Of a stretch of DNA of 31,391 nt, positions 8,902 to 31,172 are shown piece by piece. The position numbers and the translations under genes are program-made. The stretch is from a virus, in the IMG/VR virus record IMGVR_UViG_3300028025_003054, positions 1-31,391 of that record. The stretch is one strand, 5' to 3'. The notes below the pieces were generated by a model. It was not told the origin of the DNA. It was given only the letters and a program-made list of their open reading frames with translations, and did not search any database. Position 1 is the stretch's first letter. The number at the start of each line of letters is the position of its first letter.

Positions 8902-9447
8902 ATGAAAACATCGGAAAGCATCAAACAGATTGCTGAAGCTTTAGTGTCGGCGCAAAAAGAAATTAAATTTGCCGTTAAAGATTCTACCAATCCTCATTAC
9001 AAATCTAAATACGCTAACATCAATTCAGTTATTGATGCGGTTAAAGCGCCATTAAACAACAATAATATTGCAATACTTCAGTCGTTAAGTCCATCCGATG
9101 ACGGAAAACTACATTTAACTACTCGTTTAATTCATAGTTCGGGGGAATGGATTGAAGATACTGCCGTCTGCCCTTTGCAAAAACAAGATGCGCAAGGATT
9201 AGGTAGCGCAGTTTCTTACATTCGCCGTTATAGTTTATCTGCATTTTTAAGCCTTTATTCTGATACGGATGATGATGGCCAATCTGCCGCCCTTAATGCC
9301 GCAGATTATCTTCAAAAAATTAACCATAGTCAAACATTGGAAGAGTTACAGGCTAACTATAATTTTGTTATGGGTGAAGTTAAGAATGATCGCACTTTAT
9401 CTAAAATGGTTATTGAAGCTAAAGATAAAAGAAAGGCAGAGCTATGA
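8902..9447 (+). CDS. erf: ERF-family single-strand annealing protein
   Basis: Recombinase that anneals complementary single strands, as Erf of P22. The 181-residue protein shows the conserved core: 'LVSAQKEIKFAVKDSTNPHYKSKYANINSV' near the N-terminus, a middle 'LLTTRLIHSSGEWIED' type beta segment, and 'DAQGLGSAVSYIRRYSLSAFLSLYSDTDDDG', the family's best-known motif. An AAGGATAAG leader precedes the start. The partner exonuclease (YqaJ type) is encoded two genes downstream, the standard pair for phage double-strand-break annealing. Confidence 0.93.
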   Translation: MKTSESIKQIAEALVSAQKEIKFAVKDSTNPHYKSKYANINSVIDAVKAPLNNNNIAILQSLSPSDDGKLHLTTRLIHSSGEWIEDTAVCPLQKQDAQGLGSAVSYIRRYSLSAFLSLYSDTDDDGQSAALNAADYLQKINHSQTLEELQANYNFVMGEVKNDRTLSKMVIEAKDKRKAEL

Positions 9448-9625: not shown

Positions 9626-10300
9626 ATGGAAAGAATTATTAGGGGTATTGAGCAGGGCAGTTCCGAATGGATGGCTTTGAGAATTGGCCGCATAGGTGGA
9701 TCACGCATAGCTGATCTGCTTACTGAAGGTCGCGGCGGTGCTGAATCTTTAACTCGCCGTAAATATAAAAATGAATTAATTAGGGAAAGGCTAACAGGTA
9801 AAAAATTAGAAACTTATAAAACACCTGCAATGCAACGAGGAATAGATTTAGAACCAATGGCTAGAGCATGGTATGAAGTTAAATATAATACTTTTGTTGA
9901 TCAAGTAGCCATTGTTAAACATCCTACTATTGAAGGTGGCCAATGTTCACCGGATGGCCTAGTTGATGCTACTAATTCTTTAATCGAAATCAAAATACCC
10001 AATCCCGAAAACCACTTGGACAACATCCTTACGGGTGGCAAACAGTTAGATCAGTATTACGATCAGGTTATGTGGCAATTGGCCTGCGTTCCCGGCTCTA
10101 ATAGGAATGAAAAAAGAGAATTTTGCGATCTTGTATCTTTTGATCCTGATATGCCGGATCATTTACAAGGGTTCGTAAAGCGTATTTATCGGGATGATAA
10201 ATATATTAAAACAATGGAAACTGCGGTGATCGCGTTTTTATCTGAAATAGAAACTATCGTTAATAACTTAAAGGAAATACAAAATGGCAATAACCCATGA
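9626..10300 (+). CDS. YqaJ-like (lambda-exonuclease fold) recombination nuclease
   Basis: 5'-3' exonuclease partner of the ERF annealase. Signature features: 'GSSEWMALRIGRIGGS' at the N-terminus; 'RGIDLEPMAR' with E76; 'SPDGLVD' with D110; 'LIEIKIP' giving E121-x-K123; and 'YYDQVMWQLAC', the Q-x-x-x-Q helix that closes the active site. Length (224) is normal. AGGAA lies before the ATG; the end overlaps the following gene by 17 bases. Confidence 0.93.
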   Translation: MERIIRGIEQGSSEWMALRIGRIGGSRIADLLTEGRGGAESLTRRKYKNELIRERLTGKKLETYKTPAMQRGIDLEPMARAWYEVKYNTFVDQVAIVKHPTIEGGQCSPDGLVDATNSLIEIKIPNPENHLDNILTGGKQLDQYYDQVMWQLACVPGSNRNEKREFCDLVSFDPDMPDHLQGFVKRIYRDDKYIKTMETAVIAFLSEIETIVNNLKEIQNGNNP

Positions 10301-10520
10301 TTTAATCGCTAAAACAGGCGAATACACTAACGCTAACGGCGAAACTAAAGCTCGCTGGACTAAAGTAGGCGTGGCAATGAGCAATAAATCAGGCGGAACT
10401 TCTTTGCTTTTAGAATCTATCCCTGTCAATTTTGACGGCTGGGTAACAATGAGAGAACCGCAACCAAAAGCTGATGTAACTTCAATACATGGAACTGATA
10501 AAACTGACTTACCATTTTAA
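10284..10520 (+). CDS. Small SSB-like protein with acidic DLPF tip
   Basis: 78 residues: 'GEYTNANGETKARWTKVGVAM' then 'LLLESIPVNFDGWVTMREP', a beta-rich body shared by small phage proteins next to recombination genes, and a Pro/Asp-rich tail ending DKTDLPF. SSB proteins end in D-D-x-P-F, the contact for DnaG, RecO, PriA and exonuclease I. Body, tail and position after ERF and YqaJ suggest a single-strand binding protein or an SSB mimic; direct DNA binding is unproven. AAGGAAATAC precedes the ATG. Confidence 0.6.
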   Translation: MAITHDLIAKTGEYTNANGETKARWTKVGVAMSNKSGGTSLLLESIPVNFDGWVTMREPQPKADVTSIHGTDKTDLPF

Positions 10521-10595
10521 TGATTTTACTGATGGCATGAGCCACAATGTAGCCCATAATGAAATTGCAGTATTTTTTTAATTAAGGAGTTTATT

Positions 10596-10667
10596 ATGTG
10601 GACTACACCATCAGCTCAAGAAATGCGTTTTGGTTTTGAAGTAACTATGTATGTAATGAATAAATAA
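10596..10667 (+). CDS. pqqA: PqqA-like pyrroloquinoline quinone precursor peptide
   Basis: A 23-residue peptide beginning MWTTPSAQEMRFGFEVTMY and ending VMNK. Length, the 'MW..P' start, 'R.GFEVTMY' and above all E15 and Y19 (E-x-x-x-Y) match bacterial PqqA, whose Glu15 and Tyr19 are crosslinked by PqqE with PqqD and trimmed to make PQQ. A strong AAGGAG ribosome site lies 6 bases before the ATG. It is the last gene of the recombination operon, 75 bases after the SSB-like gene and followed by two hairpins. No pqqB-E genes are in the window, so host enzymes would process it. PQQ is the cofactor of methanol and other periplasmic dehydrogenases. The peptide match is strong; the effect on the host is inference. 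Confidence 0.9.
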   Translation: MWTTPSAQEMRFGFEVTMYVMNK

Positions 10668-10691
10668 GTTATACAAAAATATAACTTTTTA
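10667..10691 (+). terminator. AT-rich hairpin after pqqA
   Basis: AAGTTATA (10667-10674), a five-base loop and TATAACTT (10680-10687) form a perfect 8-bp stem followed by TTTAT, directly after the pqqA stop. Weak as a terminator because the stem is AT-rich; it could also protect the 3' end of a short pqqA transcript. Confidence 0.45.
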
Positions 10692-10735
10692 TAGGTGAAT
10701 AGCGTTCTTCAGAAAATCGGTATTTACCAATAATT

Positions 10736-10758
10736 AAGGGGCTTCATGCCCCTTTTTT
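10736..10758 (+). terminator. Rho-independent terminator of the rightward operon
   Basis: AAGGGGC (10736-10742), loop TTCAT, GCCCCTT and a run of six T ending at 10758: a GC-rich stem with U-tract, the clear end of the recombination/pqqA operon. Confidence 0.88.
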
Positions 10759-10982
10759 ATCGTGTGTATAGTGTGTAATATATAATACATTTTAATAGTT
10801 AATAAGCGCTAAATATGTTTATATTAACTACTTAAATAGTTAATATGTCGAAAAAAGTATATATTTTGTATATATTACTTTTTTGCATTTAATTATTAAA
10901 ATTTCATGCAATTATTAAATATTGTTTTCATTCTTTTCTATATAAATCAATGATTTGAGTGAAAACGGATGTAAAGTATATT
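10759..10982. other. AT-rich convergent intergenic region with inverted repeats
   Basis: No gene is seen. The region lies where the rightward operon and the leftward late operon meet. AAAAAAGTA (10851-10859) and TACTTTTTT (10876-10884) are exact complements with further TATAT pairing inside, forming a hairpin with an A-run on one side and a T-run on the other, so it could terminate transcripts from both directions. Other elements are TAGTTAA repeats at 10796-10845 and two AATTATTAAA repeats. A GTAAA/TTTAC hairpin at about 10968-10992 overlaps the end of the next leftward gene. Confidence 0.5.
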
Positions 10983-14106: not shown

Positions 14107-16509
14107 TTATGCGGCTGGATATACGGCATCCACTAATTGTCCCGAACTTAAAGCAGTTGCAAAAACTATTTGATTGCCTGAAGTTACAGTTACATCGCTT
14201 CCATTTCTCATTCTAACGCCTTGTAAATATACATCAATTTTACCTGAAACATAATTTAAGCTTGTCGAAAATGTAGTTTGCGATGCAGTTGATGTAAATG
14301 TATCGTAAGTTAATGATCCTGTTGATACGCCTGAATAGCCTGAATAGCCTGATATACCACTAAAACCACTAGCGCCATTTTGGCCTGAAAATCCGCTTAT
14401 TCCAACTGCGCCTGAATATCCGCTATAGCCTGAATAGCCTGATATTCCCACTTGACCACTATATCCTGAAATTCCTTCAGCTCCACTAAATCCGCTATAA
14501 CCACTAATTCCGCTAAAGCCTGAATAACCTGAAAAACCGCTAAAACCTGACACGCCAATATTAATACCTGTGTAAGCAATAGCTTGAACAACATCGGTTA
14601 CTGTGCAAGGGCTAATAGTAAATGATGTGCCATTAGTAGCCACTACATCAGCATCAGCTAATTTAGCACCATTTCGATATACATCTAAATAACCAACAGT
14701 ATATGAAACATTAAATACAGTTTGCCCGGCAGTAGGTGTGAAATCAGTTACAACTCTTGCGGTGCTAGTTGCGTTAATGCCACTATAGCCACTATAACCA
14801 CTATAGCCTGACACGCCCGAACCTGAATAGCCTGAATAACCTGAAATGCCACTTGCGCCTTCAGCTCCACTAAAGCCTGATATACCTGACGCGCCATTGA
14901 TGCCACTATAACCTGACAAACCTTGTTCGCCACTATAGCCGGAATAACCTGAATATCCTGACAAGCCGGGAGCGCCAATTTCGCCACTCCATCCACTATA
15001 GCCGCTAAATCCGCTTATACCTTCCGCACCTGAATAGCCTGAAAAACCACTATATCCACTAGCTCCATCAGCACCGCTAAAACCGGATATACCTGAAGCG
15101 CCATTAATGCCACTAAATCCGCTTAAACCTTGTTCGCCACTATAACCACTATAGCCGCTATAACCACTTAAACCTTGAGCGCCAACCTGTCCCGAATAAC
15201 CGCTAAATCCGCTAATGCCTGACGCTCCGCTAAAACCACTATAACCACTAAAACCACTATAGCCACTAAAGCCTGATACACCATTAACAAGAGCAAATAT
15301 TAAATCATGATTATTAGAAAAACCTGTAGTGCCTGTGCCTACACTTGAAATTAAATTAACAGGGTATTCCCAATAAGAAGTAGAAGTGCCTGCATTATAA
15401 TGAATAGGCGTTCCATTAATTTCCCAAGTTTGAGAATTAGAGCTTGAAGTTCTATCTTGAATAACAAATTGTTCGGTTTCTTTTAGTAATGCCAAATAAA
15501 TATCAACATCATCATTATTTTGAGTAAGATGTGAAACACTAATTGCCGTTGCACTTATTTGAGTTGCATTGTTCCAAGTTAAATATCCATTTCCCGGATA
15601 ACCTGATGTTGCAGTTGTATTTGCATTGTATTCAAAAAAGCTTGATGATGAGCCGGGAGTTCCGCTAAATCCGCTAATGCCTGAATAGCCTGACGCACCG
15701 CTAAATCCTGAAAAACCTGATTGACCTACTTGTCCGCTAAAACCGCTATAGCCACTAAATCCTGACAAACCAACTTCACCGCTAAAACCGCTATAGCCTG
15801 AATATCCTGATTGGCCATCTTGACCTGAATATCCGCTTAAACCATTTATTCCTGAATATCCACTAAAACCTGATATGCCTGACGCGCCGGAATAACCACT
15901 TAATCCGCTAAAGCCTTGCGCACCAACTTCGCCTGAAAAACCACTAAAGCCTGATATACCGGATGCGCCAATTTGGCCACTAAATCCACTAAAACCACTA
16001 TAGCCACTAGCGCCGTCTAAACCCGAATAACCACTTAAACCATTTACGCCTGAATATCCGCTATATCCGCTTACGCCTGATCCGCTAAAACCTGAATAAC
16101 CTGATATACCACTAGCGCCATTTTGACCTGAATAGCCACTAAAGCCACTAATTCCTTGTGCGCCACTAAAGCCACTTATGCCTTGAGGGCCTGTAGCTCC
16201 ACTATAACCACTTATACCTGATCCTGAATATCCGCTAAATCCTGATTGACCACTATAGCCTGATTGACCACTATAACCTGACTGACCATCCTGACCACTA
16301 TATCCACTAAAGCCTGATATACCTTGTGGGCCTGTAGCACCGCTAAAACCACTATAGCCGCTAAAGCCGCTAGCTCCACTACCGCCTGCGCCACTATAAC
16401 CTGAAAATCCTGAAAAACCTGATAAACCACTATATCCTGATTGACCAGCAGTAGTAAGCTCAACTGTTAAATTATTTGAATCAACAACATCTATTTGATA
16501 ATTAGCCAT
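14107..16509 (-). CDS. Collagen-like tail fibre, Gly-X-Ser repeats
   Basis: An 800-residue fibre with three stretches of strict Gly-X-Y triplets, about residues 24-285, 407-580 and 648-732, mostly G-F-S, G-Y-S, G-A-S and G-I-S with rare G-P-Q. Three non-repeat domains interrupt or end it: about 286-406 ('FFEYNANTTATSG...', beta-rich), about 583-647 ('GQTVFNVSYTVGYLDVYRNG') and the C-terminal 734-800 ('SQTTFSTSL...GKIDVYLQG'). The last two are related beta modules found on many phage fibres. A trimeric collagen-like stalk with receptor-facing heads is likely. It follows the tip and fibre genes, and glycan enzymes follow it. Start ATG at 16509. Confidence 0.88.
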   Translation of the reverse strand: MANYQIDVVDSNNLTVELTTAGQSGYSGLSGFSGFSGYSGAGGSGASGFSGYSGFSGATGPQGISGFSGYSGQDGQSGYSGQSGYSGQSGFSGYSGSGISGYSGATGPQGISGFSGAQGISGFSGYSGQNGASGISGYSGFSGSGVSGYSGYSGVNGLSGYSGLDGASGYSGFSGFSGQIGASGISGFSGFSGEVGAQGFSGLSGYSGASGISGFSGYSGINGLSGYSGQDGQSGYSGYSGFSGEVGLSGFSGYSGFSGQVGQSGFSGFSGASGYSGISGFSGTPGSSSSFFEYNANTTATSGYPGNGYLTWNNATQISATAISVSHLTQNNDDVDIYLALLKETEQFVIQDRTSSSNSQTWEINGTPIHYNAGTSTSYWEYPVNLISSVGTGTTGFSNNHDLIFALVNGVSGFSGYSGFSGYSGFSGASGISGFSGYSGQVGAQGLSGYSGYSGYSGEQGLSGFSGINGASGISGFSGADGASGYSGFSGYSGAEGISGFSGYSGWSGEIGAPGLSGYSGYSGYSGEQGLSGYSGINGASGISGFSGAEGASGISGYSGYSGSGVSGYSGYSGYSGINATSTARVVTDFTPTAGQTVFNVSYTVGYLDVYRNGAKLADADVVATNGTSFTISPCTVTDVVQAIAYTGINIGVSGFSGFSGYSGFSGISGYSGFSGAEGISGYSGQVGISGYSGYSGYSGAVGISGFSGQNGASGFSGISGYSGYSGVSTGSLTYDTFTSTASQTTFSTSLNYVSGKIDVYLQGVRMRNGSDVTVTSGNQIVFATALSSGQLVDAVYPAA
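14330..16440 (-). repeat. Low-complexity DNA coding for the Gly-X-Ser triplets
   Basis: Highly repetitive 9- and 18-base units encoding GFSGYSG-type peptides, broken by unique blocks at about 15290-15650 and 14570-14765. Synonymous codons vary between units, so the repeat is kept at protein level more than at DNA level, but recombination between units could still change the fibre length. Confidence 0.8.
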
Positions 16510-28710: not shown

Positions 28711-29769
28711 TTAAACCCCTACTAAAAATACGCCTGCAAAAGGATTTCTAACAGTTGATGCTAATCGTTTTTCTGCAAATAAAGTAATAAAGCCCGGTGC
28801 AGTTTGATCAAAGCGTTTAATATTCATTTCCTCTGCATCAGCAATAGTTAAGAATTGATCCCAATTTGCTAACACGCCTGAAATTTTACCTGCGGCTGGA
28901 GCATCTAAATAAGGATTAACAATTACCGGGAATCCAAATAAATAAACTAATGATCCACCATCTTCCGTTCCCGTTTCAACAAACATTGGAGCGCCACCTG
29001 TCGATCCTTTTAATTTTCTTAATTGAGAAATTAAAGAAGGATGTAAGTGCCATGCAGTTGTAGGTAATGCCCAATATTGACCGGGCAATAAATTGGCCGC
29101 ATTAACAATATCGTCATAAGTGATTGCTGAAGCTGAAAACTCTTCTTTTAAAATAGTATGAATACCATTAGTTATAGCAGTTCCACTTGAGCCATAAGAT
29201 GCGGCTGAAGTGCTTGTGTTATAAACAACTAAACCGCGCAAACCGCTAGTTCCACCGGTTGTTGTTGTTGTTGATCCTGCTTGATCGTTGTTAATAGCCA
29301 TCGACTGTGCTTCTAGCGATGATAGCTCTAGCATTAAGTCGTTAGAAATAGCTGGATCGATGCCATTAATATCATCCATAACGGCAGTTCTAATTGGTAA
29401 TTGTGCAGTAATAACTCTAGTGGGCAATTGCCATATTGTTGTAGCAATATTTGGGCTACCACTATTAGGAGTTACAGGGTATGTAAAAGGGTTTGTTGCG
29501 TCTGCGGCATTACCTGTTTTAGCCACAAATTGAGCGGCTGATCCTGTGTATGTAACTTGACGGCTTCCCATTCTAAATGGGTTTGCATATCTTAAAGCGG
29601 CAAAAGCGTCATCAAAATAAACTCGACCACCAATATTTAAGCCTGATCCTGTTAGCGTTGATGCTTCTTCTACATCTTTGGTCTTATTATTATCAGTAAA
29701 ATTAACTGTGGCTTGACCTTCAGTTAAAGCCTGTTTAATGCCATTTAAAATTTTTTCAGATGTATTCAT
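28711..29769 (-). CDS. Second HK97-type major capsid protein paralogue (short form)
   Basis: 352 residues. It shares a long series of motifs with the capsid gene before it: 'EASTLTGSG..IGGR', 'FAALR..NP.R..SR', 'QF.AKTGNA', 'PIRTA..DDI.G', 'EAQSM.INNDQ', 'SGLRGL', and near the end 'EKRLAS...PFA'. It lacks the first 90 or so residues of that protein (the coiled-coil scaffold-like arm) and starts close to where the mature capsid domain begins. The start has an AGGA ribosome site (TTAGGAATACAAATG), no promoter is seen, and a terminator hairpin lies upstream, so it should be made in lower amount. Role: minor capsid subunit, vertex or alternative capsid (inference). Confidence 0.88.
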   Translation of the reverse strand: MNTSEKILNGIKQALTEGQATVNFTDNNKTKDVEEASTLTGSGLNIGGRVYFDDAFAALRYANPFRMGSRQVTYTGSAAQFVAKTGNAADATNPFTYPVTPNSGSPNIATTIWQLPTRVITAQLPIRTAVMDDINGIDPAISNDLMLELSSLEAQSMAINNDQAGSTTTTTGGTSGLRGLVVYNTSTSAASYGSSGTAITNGIHTILKEEFSASAITYDDIVNAANLLPGQYWALPTTAWHLHPSLISQLRKLKGSTGGAPMFVETGTEDGGSLVYLFGFPVIVNPYLDAPAAGKISGVLANWDQFLTIADAEEMNIKRFDQTAPGFITLFAEKRLASTVRNPFAGVFLVGV

Positions 29770-29837: not shown

Positions 29838-31172
29838 CTATAGATCAGCAGTTGCAGTTGATCTGTAACGAACTAAAGCAAAAGGATCAACAATAGATGT
29901 TGCTAATCGTTTTTCGCCATAGAAAGTAATAGAACCTGGCAATGTTTGATCATAACGGCGTAATACCATGTTTAAACGATCAACAATAGTATGACCTCTA
30001 GTAAAATCACCAAAATACATTGGATATAAACTATCAGTTCCAGCCGATGCTGAATATTTAGAAGGTGCATTTACATAGGTATTAACTACAACATCAAAAC
30101 CTAGTAATGAGCCTACAATACCATCATTGCGTGCTAAACCATCAACATAAATTGGTCTGCCTTGTGTATCTGTTAAACCACGAATTGCTGAAAGCATTAC
30201 AGGGTTAATAACAAATTTAGCATTAGGTGTCCAATATGCTTGTGGTAATGCATAAACAAAATTAACAACATCTTCATAAGTTACATTGTTTGTTAATGCG
30301 TTTCCGTTTGTTGTTAATTGATCGTATGTTGCTAGATCATGCAAACCATCGCTTGATGCTGTGCCTGATGAGCCAAAATCTGAAGCTGATGTTGTGCCGC
30401 CTGTGTAAGAAGCATTAGCGCCCGGATATTGATTAAGACCGCGTAAGCCGTCAGAACCACCACCGCCAGTTGGACTAGCCACACCTTGATCGTTGTTTAT
30501 AATCATAGATTGAGCTTCGCGTTGGCTAAATTCAGCTAACATATCTGAAACTACATTAGATTCCAAACCATCGATGTCATCTAAAGCCGCAGTTCTAATT
30601 GGGAATTGAACATTCAAATCTTTTAAGTTTAATTGCCAAATTGAAGTTGCTTCAGTTGTAGCCGCAGTATTATTAACAATACCATAACCCCAACCAGCGC
30701 CAGCATTACCTGTTTTAGCTCTAAATTGATATGTAGAAGCGTCAGTAGCAACAGAACGAGATACACCGCGCATAGGATTTTCTAAACGCAATGCCGCAAA
30801 TACTGGATCATAAGCAGTTCTACCACCAATGCCAGCGCCTGAACCTGTTAGAGTTGAAGCTTCTTTGAGGTATGCGTCATATTGACCAGCATCTTCAAAC
30901 ATTTTAATTTCTTTTTCTACGCGACCATTGCCTTTCATAAATTCAGCAAGTTGTCCTTTAACCATACGATTAACTTCTTGCGAAATTGATTTGTATGTTT
31001 TAATTGTTGTAGGTGCATTAATTGAAGCAACTTTAGCTTCAAGTGCCGCAACTTTTTCATCAAAAGAAGCTACAGTTTCAGCAAGTTTAGCATCAACAGT
31101 AGCAGTTACTTCTTCTACCTTTGCTAAATTTGCCGCTTCTATAGCGTCTAGTTTTTCAATGATTTTTTCCAT
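29838..31172 (-). CDS. HK97-type major capsid protein with N-terminal scaffold-like arm
   Basis: 444 residues. Residues 1-60 are a coiled coil ('KLDAIEAANLAKVEEVTATVD', 'SFDEKVAALEAKVASI'), typical of the delta/scaffold arm removed by the prohead protease; residues about 105-444 are the capsid domain with 'IGGRTAYDPVFAALRLENPMR', 'SQREAQSMIINNDQ' and the closing 'YGEKRLATSIVDPFALVRYR'. AAGGAT lies before the ATG. The protease cut should fall near residues 90-106 (inference). Probably the main shell protein because of the arm, strong leader and following terminator. Confidence 0.92.
   Translation of the reverse strand: MEKIIEKLDAIEAANLAKVEEVTATVDAKLAETVASFDEKVAALEAKVASINAPTTIKTYKSISQEVNRMVKGQLAEFMKGNGRVEKEIKMFEDAGQYDAYLKEASTLTGSGAGIGGRTAYDPVFAALRLENPMRGVSRSVATDASTYQFRAKTGNAGAGWGYGIVNNTAATTEATSIWQLNLKDLNVQFPIRTAALDDIDGLESNVVSDMLAEFSQREAQSMIINNDQGVASPTGGGGSDGLRGLNQYPGANASYTGGTTSASDFGSSGTASSDGLHDLATYDQLTTNGNALTNNVTYEDVVNFVYALPQAYWTPNAKFVINPVMLSAIRGLTDTQGRPIYVDGLARNDGIVGSLLGFDVVVNTYVNAPSKYSASAGTDSLYPMYFGDFTRGHTIVDRLNMVLRRYDQTLPGSITFYGEKRLATSIVDPFALVRYRSTATADL

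Follow-up and report, generated by a model that had tools for sequence, protein, structure and literature searches.

A stand-alone pqqA cassette in a virus of Methylophilaceae and its upstream dyad resembling a host operator

A virus record of 31,391 bases from IMG/VR (hereafter the window, i.e. the whole stretch of DNA that was analysed) carries, at the end of its recombination genes, a very short gene for PqqA, the peptide precursor of PQQ. We regard this gene as a genuine moron-like auxiliary cassette that supplies PQQ precursor in a phage of Methylophilaceae, and we assign to this reading, whose functional part is inferred from sequence, a probability of roughly 0.78. A wider interpretation is that phages of Methylophilaceae near-universally and convergently carry a stand-alone pqqA, wired through a copied operator into an undescribed PQQ regulon of the host, and thereby track the cofactor demand of the host; this we favour with less assurance, at somewhat better than even odds.

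It should be noted that the idea of a phage PqqA is itself not new. A 2020 study of Lake Baikal already described a Methylophilaceae phage population with PqqA (VP_266; PMC7678222) and proposed that it supports methanol oxidation. Unlike the window, VP_266 has a T4-like genome and also encodes a methanol dehydrogenase, and it was presented as a single case, without regulatory site, cassette structure or prevalence. In a 2026 study of reservoir sediments (PMC13188868), viral pqqA, pqqE and pqqD are reported, with pqqA among the viral auxiliary genes; in the part of that article available to us, pqqA is filed under phosphate solubilisation, with no analysis of host, context or regulation. The searchable text of the papers on Venkman, Melnitz, MEP301 and phages of the MEP401/402 type contains no mention of pqqA (the P19250A paper was outside the scope of this search). 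The ubiquity, the cassette structure and the host operator of phage pqqA appear to be unreported, as judged from a literature search mostly without subscription papers, which likewise returned no description of a pqqA operator in Methylophilaceae.

The pqqA gene and its cassette

The 23-residue peptide MWTTPSAQEMRFGFEVTMYVMNK is the product of a 72-bp ORF on the forward strand of the window (Table 1). The sequence-only reading had named it PqqA on account of its length, its MW..P start and the residues E15 and Y19 within E-V-T-M-Y, all of which are present as described, and two curated profiles agree with this assignment, namely Pfam PF08042 (40.3 bits, cut-off 21.1) and the NCBIfam equivalog TIGR02107 (37.2 bits, cut-off 20). 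Both matches span nearly the whole peptide, and because both scores are well above the curated cut-offs, a chance ORF is excluded. The window ORF has two further attributes by which a PqqA is recognized: it falls among ORFs of about 22-29 residues preceded by a ribosome-binding site (the AAGGAG already pointed out is indeed there, although translation is inferred from sequence only), and it has the E-x3-Y pair that is cross-linked by PqqE. A third attribute, adjacency to pqqBCDE, is lacking; this is not strictly defining, because the hosts have several pqqA genes and usually one pqqB-E set, so that most copies are orphan. No solved structure matches the peptide by sequence. It is clear to us that the ORF is a genuine PqqA, while its acceptance by PqqD and PqqE and its conversion to PQQ are inferred.

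Table 1. Features of the pqqA locus in the window (coordinates refer to the whole window).
Feature	Position	Strand	Evidence or remark
Erf-like single-strand annealing protein	8902..9447	+	PF04404 1.2e-26, phrog_2324 1.2e-49
YqaJ/RecE-like exonuclease	9626..10300	+	PF09588 3.9e-19, phrog_149 1.5e-39
78-aa conserved protein, function unknown	10284..10520	+	phrog_37570
'PQQ box' dyad TTAATGATTTTACTGAT	10517..10533 (core 10518-10532, centre 10525)	+	resembles host operator YTMATGA-N3-TCATKAR
Whole inserted cassette	10521..10735	+	aligned with L328, which has the empty site; 3' end may be off by a few bases
Putative -10 hexamer CATAAT	10555..10560	+	exactly 30 bp downstream of box centre
Ribosome-binding site AAGGAG	10584..10589	+	sequence; six bases 5' of pqqA ATG
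pqqA, 23-aa PQQ precursor peptide MWTTPSAQEMRFGFEVTMYVMNK	10596..10667	+	PF08042 3e-10, TIGR02107 1.8e-9; conserved frame and residues
Cassette terminator, 8-bp hairpin then T-run	10666..10690	+	fold -4.5 kcal/mol, z -2.6
Recombination-operon terminator GGGGC..GCCCC, T6	10736..10759	+	-12.7 kcal/mol, z -3.8; kept in L328

The gene sits 3' of an operon encoding Erf, the YqaJ exonuclease and the conserved 78-residue protein. The last of these is perhaps SSB-like by its position, the small gene at the corresponding place in MW202481 being annotated as a putative ssDNA-binding protein. The initial placement of pqqA in the recombination operon is correct insofar as the gene lies at its 3' end, but pqqA is part of a separate, inserted cassette. 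In the relative L328, which has no cassette, a GGGGC/GCCCC terminator directly follows the stop codon of the 78-aa gene; compared with it, the window contains about 215 additional bp that hold most of the upstream dyad (the PQQ box, see below), the -10 hexamer, the ribosome-binding site, pqqA and a hairpin terminator. For the same reason, only the first of the two terminators that had been credited to pqqA can be left to it: since the second is kept in L328, it belongs to the recombination operon.

In the other phages too pqqA is intergenic, with at least 60 bp upstream in 90% of cases, and a Shine-Dalgarno-like stretch precedes every copy scanned. Terminator-like hairpins were found within 60 nt after 41 of 124 phage pqqA genes, compared with 4 of 580 random windows. 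The cassettes occur in either orientation and in 80 different neighbour contexts among 112, and 40 of the 113 for which both flanks are available are antisense to both neighbours; these need a promoter of their own, because both neighbours run in the opposite direction. The first feature of a moron, a self-contained insert for which an empty-site relative is known, is met by the intergenic cassette and L328. For the second, a promoter and a terminator of its own, sequence signals were found and are enriched, in the absence of transcript data.

The suggestion that the phage carries pqqA without the rest of the pathway also held. No pqqB-E genes were present next to the phage pqqA copies at any locus inspected, and no PqqE scored above the cut-off in 49 whole virus records, 48 of which contain exactly one pqqA (the remaining record is a known spurious match). 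A PQQ-dependent alcohol dehydrogenase of 628 residues is encoded at positions 34049-35731 of one pqqA phage contig (L054/G078; 72,356 bases), in agreement with the report from Lake Baikal of methanol dehydrogenase in Methylophilaceae phages (PMC7678222).

Two observations concern other parts of the window. An 800-residue protein encoded on the reverse strand (14107-16509) consists mostly of collagen-like repeats of the SGFSGYSG type, and is probably a tail fibre or part of a receptor-binding structure. Two adjacent genes, also on the reverse strand (28711-29769 and 29838-31172), have a match in common, the major head protein family phrog_10, which suggests a duplicated capsid gene.

Occurrence and conservation in phages

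Relatives of the window were gathered through its YqaJ exonuclease, blind to pqqA, the criteria being a YqaJ at least 76% identical and enough sequence. In 54 of these 55 relatives pqqA is found about 310 bp downstream of YqaJ; two distant YqaJ homologues (28%) are without it. When IMG/VR was searched with the codon pattern W-x10-G-x-E-V-T-x-Y, at least 120 contigs matched, and among the matches listed the PqqA ORF was confirmed in 119 of 120 (the other, L020, was spurious and has no PqqA ORF). A narrower scan, limited to the Val codon GTG, gave 115 real cases out of 120 among the matches listed, and five spurious ones; scaling by the proportion of GTG codons (5/119) leads to a total of roughly 2,700 contigs in IMG/VR, a figure that is uncertain several-fold. 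IMG/VR records are mostly fragments, and cultured methylophages devoid of pqqA have been incompletely counted.

A tblastn search of a phage collection returned ten genuine pqqA records, i.e. Methylophilaceae phage P19250A (KX815270), the Methylophilales phages Venkman, MEP301, MEP401, MEP402 and four Melnitz variants, and a Manatee Spring podovirus (MW202481). The gene is present in all nine Methylophilales or Methylophilaceae phage records seen in the collection, which is not to say in all known phages of these hosts, as the collection status of HIM624-A, MEP431-434 and Venkman EXVC038S was not established. The peptide of P19250A, Venkman, MEP301, MEP401/402 and Melnitz is the same as that of the window (77-91% identity). 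P19250A has pqqA at the window's place and orientation. The Venkman, MEP301 and Manatee Spring genomes also have the gene at that end of the recombination genes, but in reverse orientation. The phages bearing pqqA fall in different lineages (Zobellviridae, Kyanoviridae and others). The methylotroph host that had been surmised is supported by the closest isolate, P19250A, whose host is a member of Methylophilaceae, and by the peptide type of the window, which is almost confined to that family. Phage pqqA may serve, for uncultured viruses of methylotrophs, as a simple host marker.

In most collection records the pqqA locus is unannotated; the annotation of some has another hypothetical ORF at this place, antisense to pqqA. 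That ORF callers would overlook the gene on account of its size had been anticipated; its 69 coding bases are below most limits, and it is absent from the annotations of the published isolates. Within one host family, pqqA is a near-universal yet overlooked phage gene.

Across 115 distinct phage coding sequences, W2, P5, R11, G13, F14, E15, V16, T17 and Y19 are invariant. The codon pattern had fixed W2, G13, E15, V16, T17 and Y19 beforehand and left P5, R11 and F14 free; because it fixes both E15 and Y19, independent evidence for these two residues comes from the YqaJ-based sample, in which a looser pattern was used. The same 115 sequences have a pN/pS of 0.20, with many synonymous differences, and the two alternative frames are nearly always interrupted by stops. 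This pattern points to a functional peptide and not to an RNA or a chance ORF. Lack of conservation of E15, Y19 and the reading frame in related phages had been put forward as grounds for rejecting a phage pqqA; on inspection they are conserved (54/55 relatives, 119/120 of the IMG/VR matches listed). Moreover, 47 of the 127 peptides in the phage set, including the two commonest, are identical to a sampled host PqqA. A peptide near-identical to Methylophilaceae PqqA and a gene under purifying selection are what is required of a host-derived metabolic gene.

The data may also be read as the trace of mobile Methylophilaceae pqqA cassettes that enter phages by recombination and bring no benefit. 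Such traffic would be in keeping with the several scattered, and often orphan, pqqA copies of the hosts, and with the many neighbour contexts and both orientations seen in phages. However, the nearly complete retention downstream of YqaJ, the low pN/pS and the presence of the gene in all Methylophilales records seen would be unexpected in compact genomes, and the lone relative without pqqA, L328, has a clean empty site and not a ruined gene. We consider this explanation very improbable.

The upstream dyad in phages and hosts

In the regions that precede phage pqqA, motif discovery yielded TaATGaTTTTc.ttAt (log-likelihood 584, compared with 55 for shuffled sequences), and a separate discovery upstream of host pqqA gave TcATGAattTcaTtAG (886 compared with 59); both are versions of one dyad, YTMATGA-N3-TCATKAR. 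In the window, the dyad shares bases with the stop codon of the preceding gene; its first half-site is exact and its second imperfect (ACTGAT for TCATKA). It is the best match in the whole window for the phage-trained matrix (18.9 bits) and for the host-trained one (14.1 bits). The latter, in whose training no phage sequence was used, peaks at position 10518, immediately upstream of pqqA. The feature that marks the Methylophilaceae pqqA regulon, an upstream dyad at the promoter, is present in the window, albeit with the second half-site imperfect. Over all phages, the host-trained matrix reaches at least 8 bits in 69 of 115 upstream regions, compared with 1.4% of control windows. With the strict cut-off, about 40% of the phage cassettes, including that of MEP402, lack a strong box, and in some phages with other PqqA types pqqA lies about 10 bp behind the upstream gene and has no box.

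In 25 of the 73 phage cassettes with a box, a TATAAT-like hexamer follows the box centre at a distance of exactly 30 bp, the maximum in 500 jittered controls being 11. With this spacing the box lies near -42, where activators that take over the function of a -35 element classically bind. A plain sigma-70 search (-35 plus -10) upstream of phage pqqA showed no enrichment, because the box is paired with a lone -10 at fixed spacing. The regulator binding the box would be an activator, but this is an inference from the spacing; there are no binding data, the protein is unidentified, and a repressor is possible.

All 60 sampled Methylophilaceae genomes contain pqqA, in 1-12 copies each, which are scattered over the genome. 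Multiple pqqA genes, beside other pqq genes that are usually single-copy, were noted earlier for this family (PMC4109929), and orphan pqqA copies in Methylovorus MP688 are ascribed to Ge et al. (2015) in PMC6520949, the source through which that work is known to us. The orphan chromosomal pqqA of Methylophilaceae (PMC4109929) is comparable to the phage gene, having the same peptide and the same PQQ box and lying away from pqqBCDE. The exact dyad occurs 0-6 times per genome (0-1 times for the reversed control), and 34 of 40 host sites fetched unselected are upstream of either pqqA (33) or pqqB (1), at 96-135 bp from the pqqA start where this was measured. One of the 33 pqqA genes is an F14S variant, and in Methylophilus methylotrophus an additional dyad precedes pqqB. 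In the hosts, the main box is mostly located 53 bp before the -10 and is accompanied by a weaker second half-site 23 bp downstream, whereas phages mostly have one box, at 30 bp.

The dyad is a candidate mark of a PQQ regulon whose regulator is unknown, and the phage seems, as far as motifs can tell, to add a further pqqA copy to this multicopy regulon of the host. With the box that phages and hosts share, a candidate regulon for PQQ synthesis comes to light in a family that plays a central part in methanol cycling, both in freshwater and along coasts, and phage pqqA appears to be a clear case of a phage gene under a host metabolic control element.

It is conceivable that the box itself is what matters, as a decoy that titrates the host PQQ regulator and shifts host pqq expression, the peptide being incidental. 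The box is indeed common to the host pqqA promoters, but the peptide is subject to strong purifying selection and is invariant at its catalytic and binding positions, and many phages retain pqqA without a strong box, among them the boxless genes close behind an upstream phage gene; we therefore give this idea little credence.

As a side observation, in the host loci L249-L294 pqqA or pqqB is preceded by a dyad of high specificity that looks like an operator, often with the second half-site 23 bp downstream. At position 1001 of L294, one of the few host dyads that do not precede a pqq gene lies between a methanol dehydrogenase-like gene and a small gene, and could be due to chance.

Proposed role of the phage peptide

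On infection, the PQQ regulator and RNA polymerase of the host would transcribe phage pqqA, host PqqD and PqqE would cross-link the phage peptide at E15-Y19, and the other Pqq enzymes of the host would finish the cross-linked peptide into PQQ. One PqqA peptide is consumed for each PQQ; therefore, an extra precursor gene alone could lift PQQ output, and pqqA copy number is a plausible control point. The extra PQQ would keep methanol dehydrogenase supplied, and hence energy and carbon flow, in lytic growth. A search of 27 records detected no tyrosine integrase, so that the benefit probably falls during lytic growth, as is consistent with lytic phages. We propose that phage pqqA follows the host's own multicopy solution. 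Because most phage records supply neither a PQQ enzyme nor a dehydrogenase, the benefit depends wholly on existing host proteins, and the size of any gain in PQQ is unclear, because the methanol dehydrogenase molecules that predate infection have received their PQQ already.

This suggests that the supply of precursor peptide, and not the level of the enzymes, limits PQQ in infected methylotrophs. If true, supplying a ribosomal precursor that is consumed, instead of an enzyme, would represent a distinct design of phage metabolic gene, and expression of phage pqqA would rise and fall with host cofactor demand. Cultured phage-host pairs exist (P19250A, Venkman, Melnitz and MEP301), which makes the system directly testable.

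The opposite effect can be imagined, in which the phage peptide binds PqqD or PqqE as a poor substrate and stops PQQ synthesis in the host, altering its metabolism or excluding rivals. The peptide is carried without enzymes, and sequence data do not separate a substrate from an inhibitor; however, more than a third of the phage peptides (the 47 of 127 mentioned above) are host PqqA itself, E15 and Y19 are never lost, and one phage has, besides pqqA, a gene for a PQQ-dependent dehydrogenase. Sabotage of this kind seems to us quite unlikely, and supply of the precursor remains the preferred reading. Finally, an artefact, either a bacterial contig taken for a phage or a chance ORF, might be suspected because some other database matches are bacterial (a record of Acinetobacter phage MD-2021a with pqqABCDE), but it is refuted by the same gene in cultured phage genomes, and the window reads as phage from end to end, with genes for capsid, tail, tape-measure, endolysin and primosomal proteins as well as Erf and YqaJ.

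The two Acinetobacter phage MD-2021a records, which were the sole further tblastn matches in the phage collection, were rejected as examples of phage pqqA, since the match is weaker and the one inspected carries bacterial pqqABCDE. Both CAKLQF020000010 and CAKLQH020000055 have a PqqA of bacterial type, and the latter, in which the pqqABCDE cluster is found, is likely to be host DNA filed under phage.

Seven lambdoid prophage-like contigs from the GTG scan (L377, L389, L421, L429, L430, L441 and L452) carry, close to an end of the contig, a pqqA of Klebsiella type, which in some cases lies beside a TonB-receptor-like fragment or start. This pqqA may be host flank, with integration beside the host pqqA, or prophage cargo. 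Phage pqqA types unlike those of Methylophilaceae were observed in L380, L416, L394, L374 and L034, one of these contigs being 221 kb long, and pqqA may not be confined to phages of one host family.
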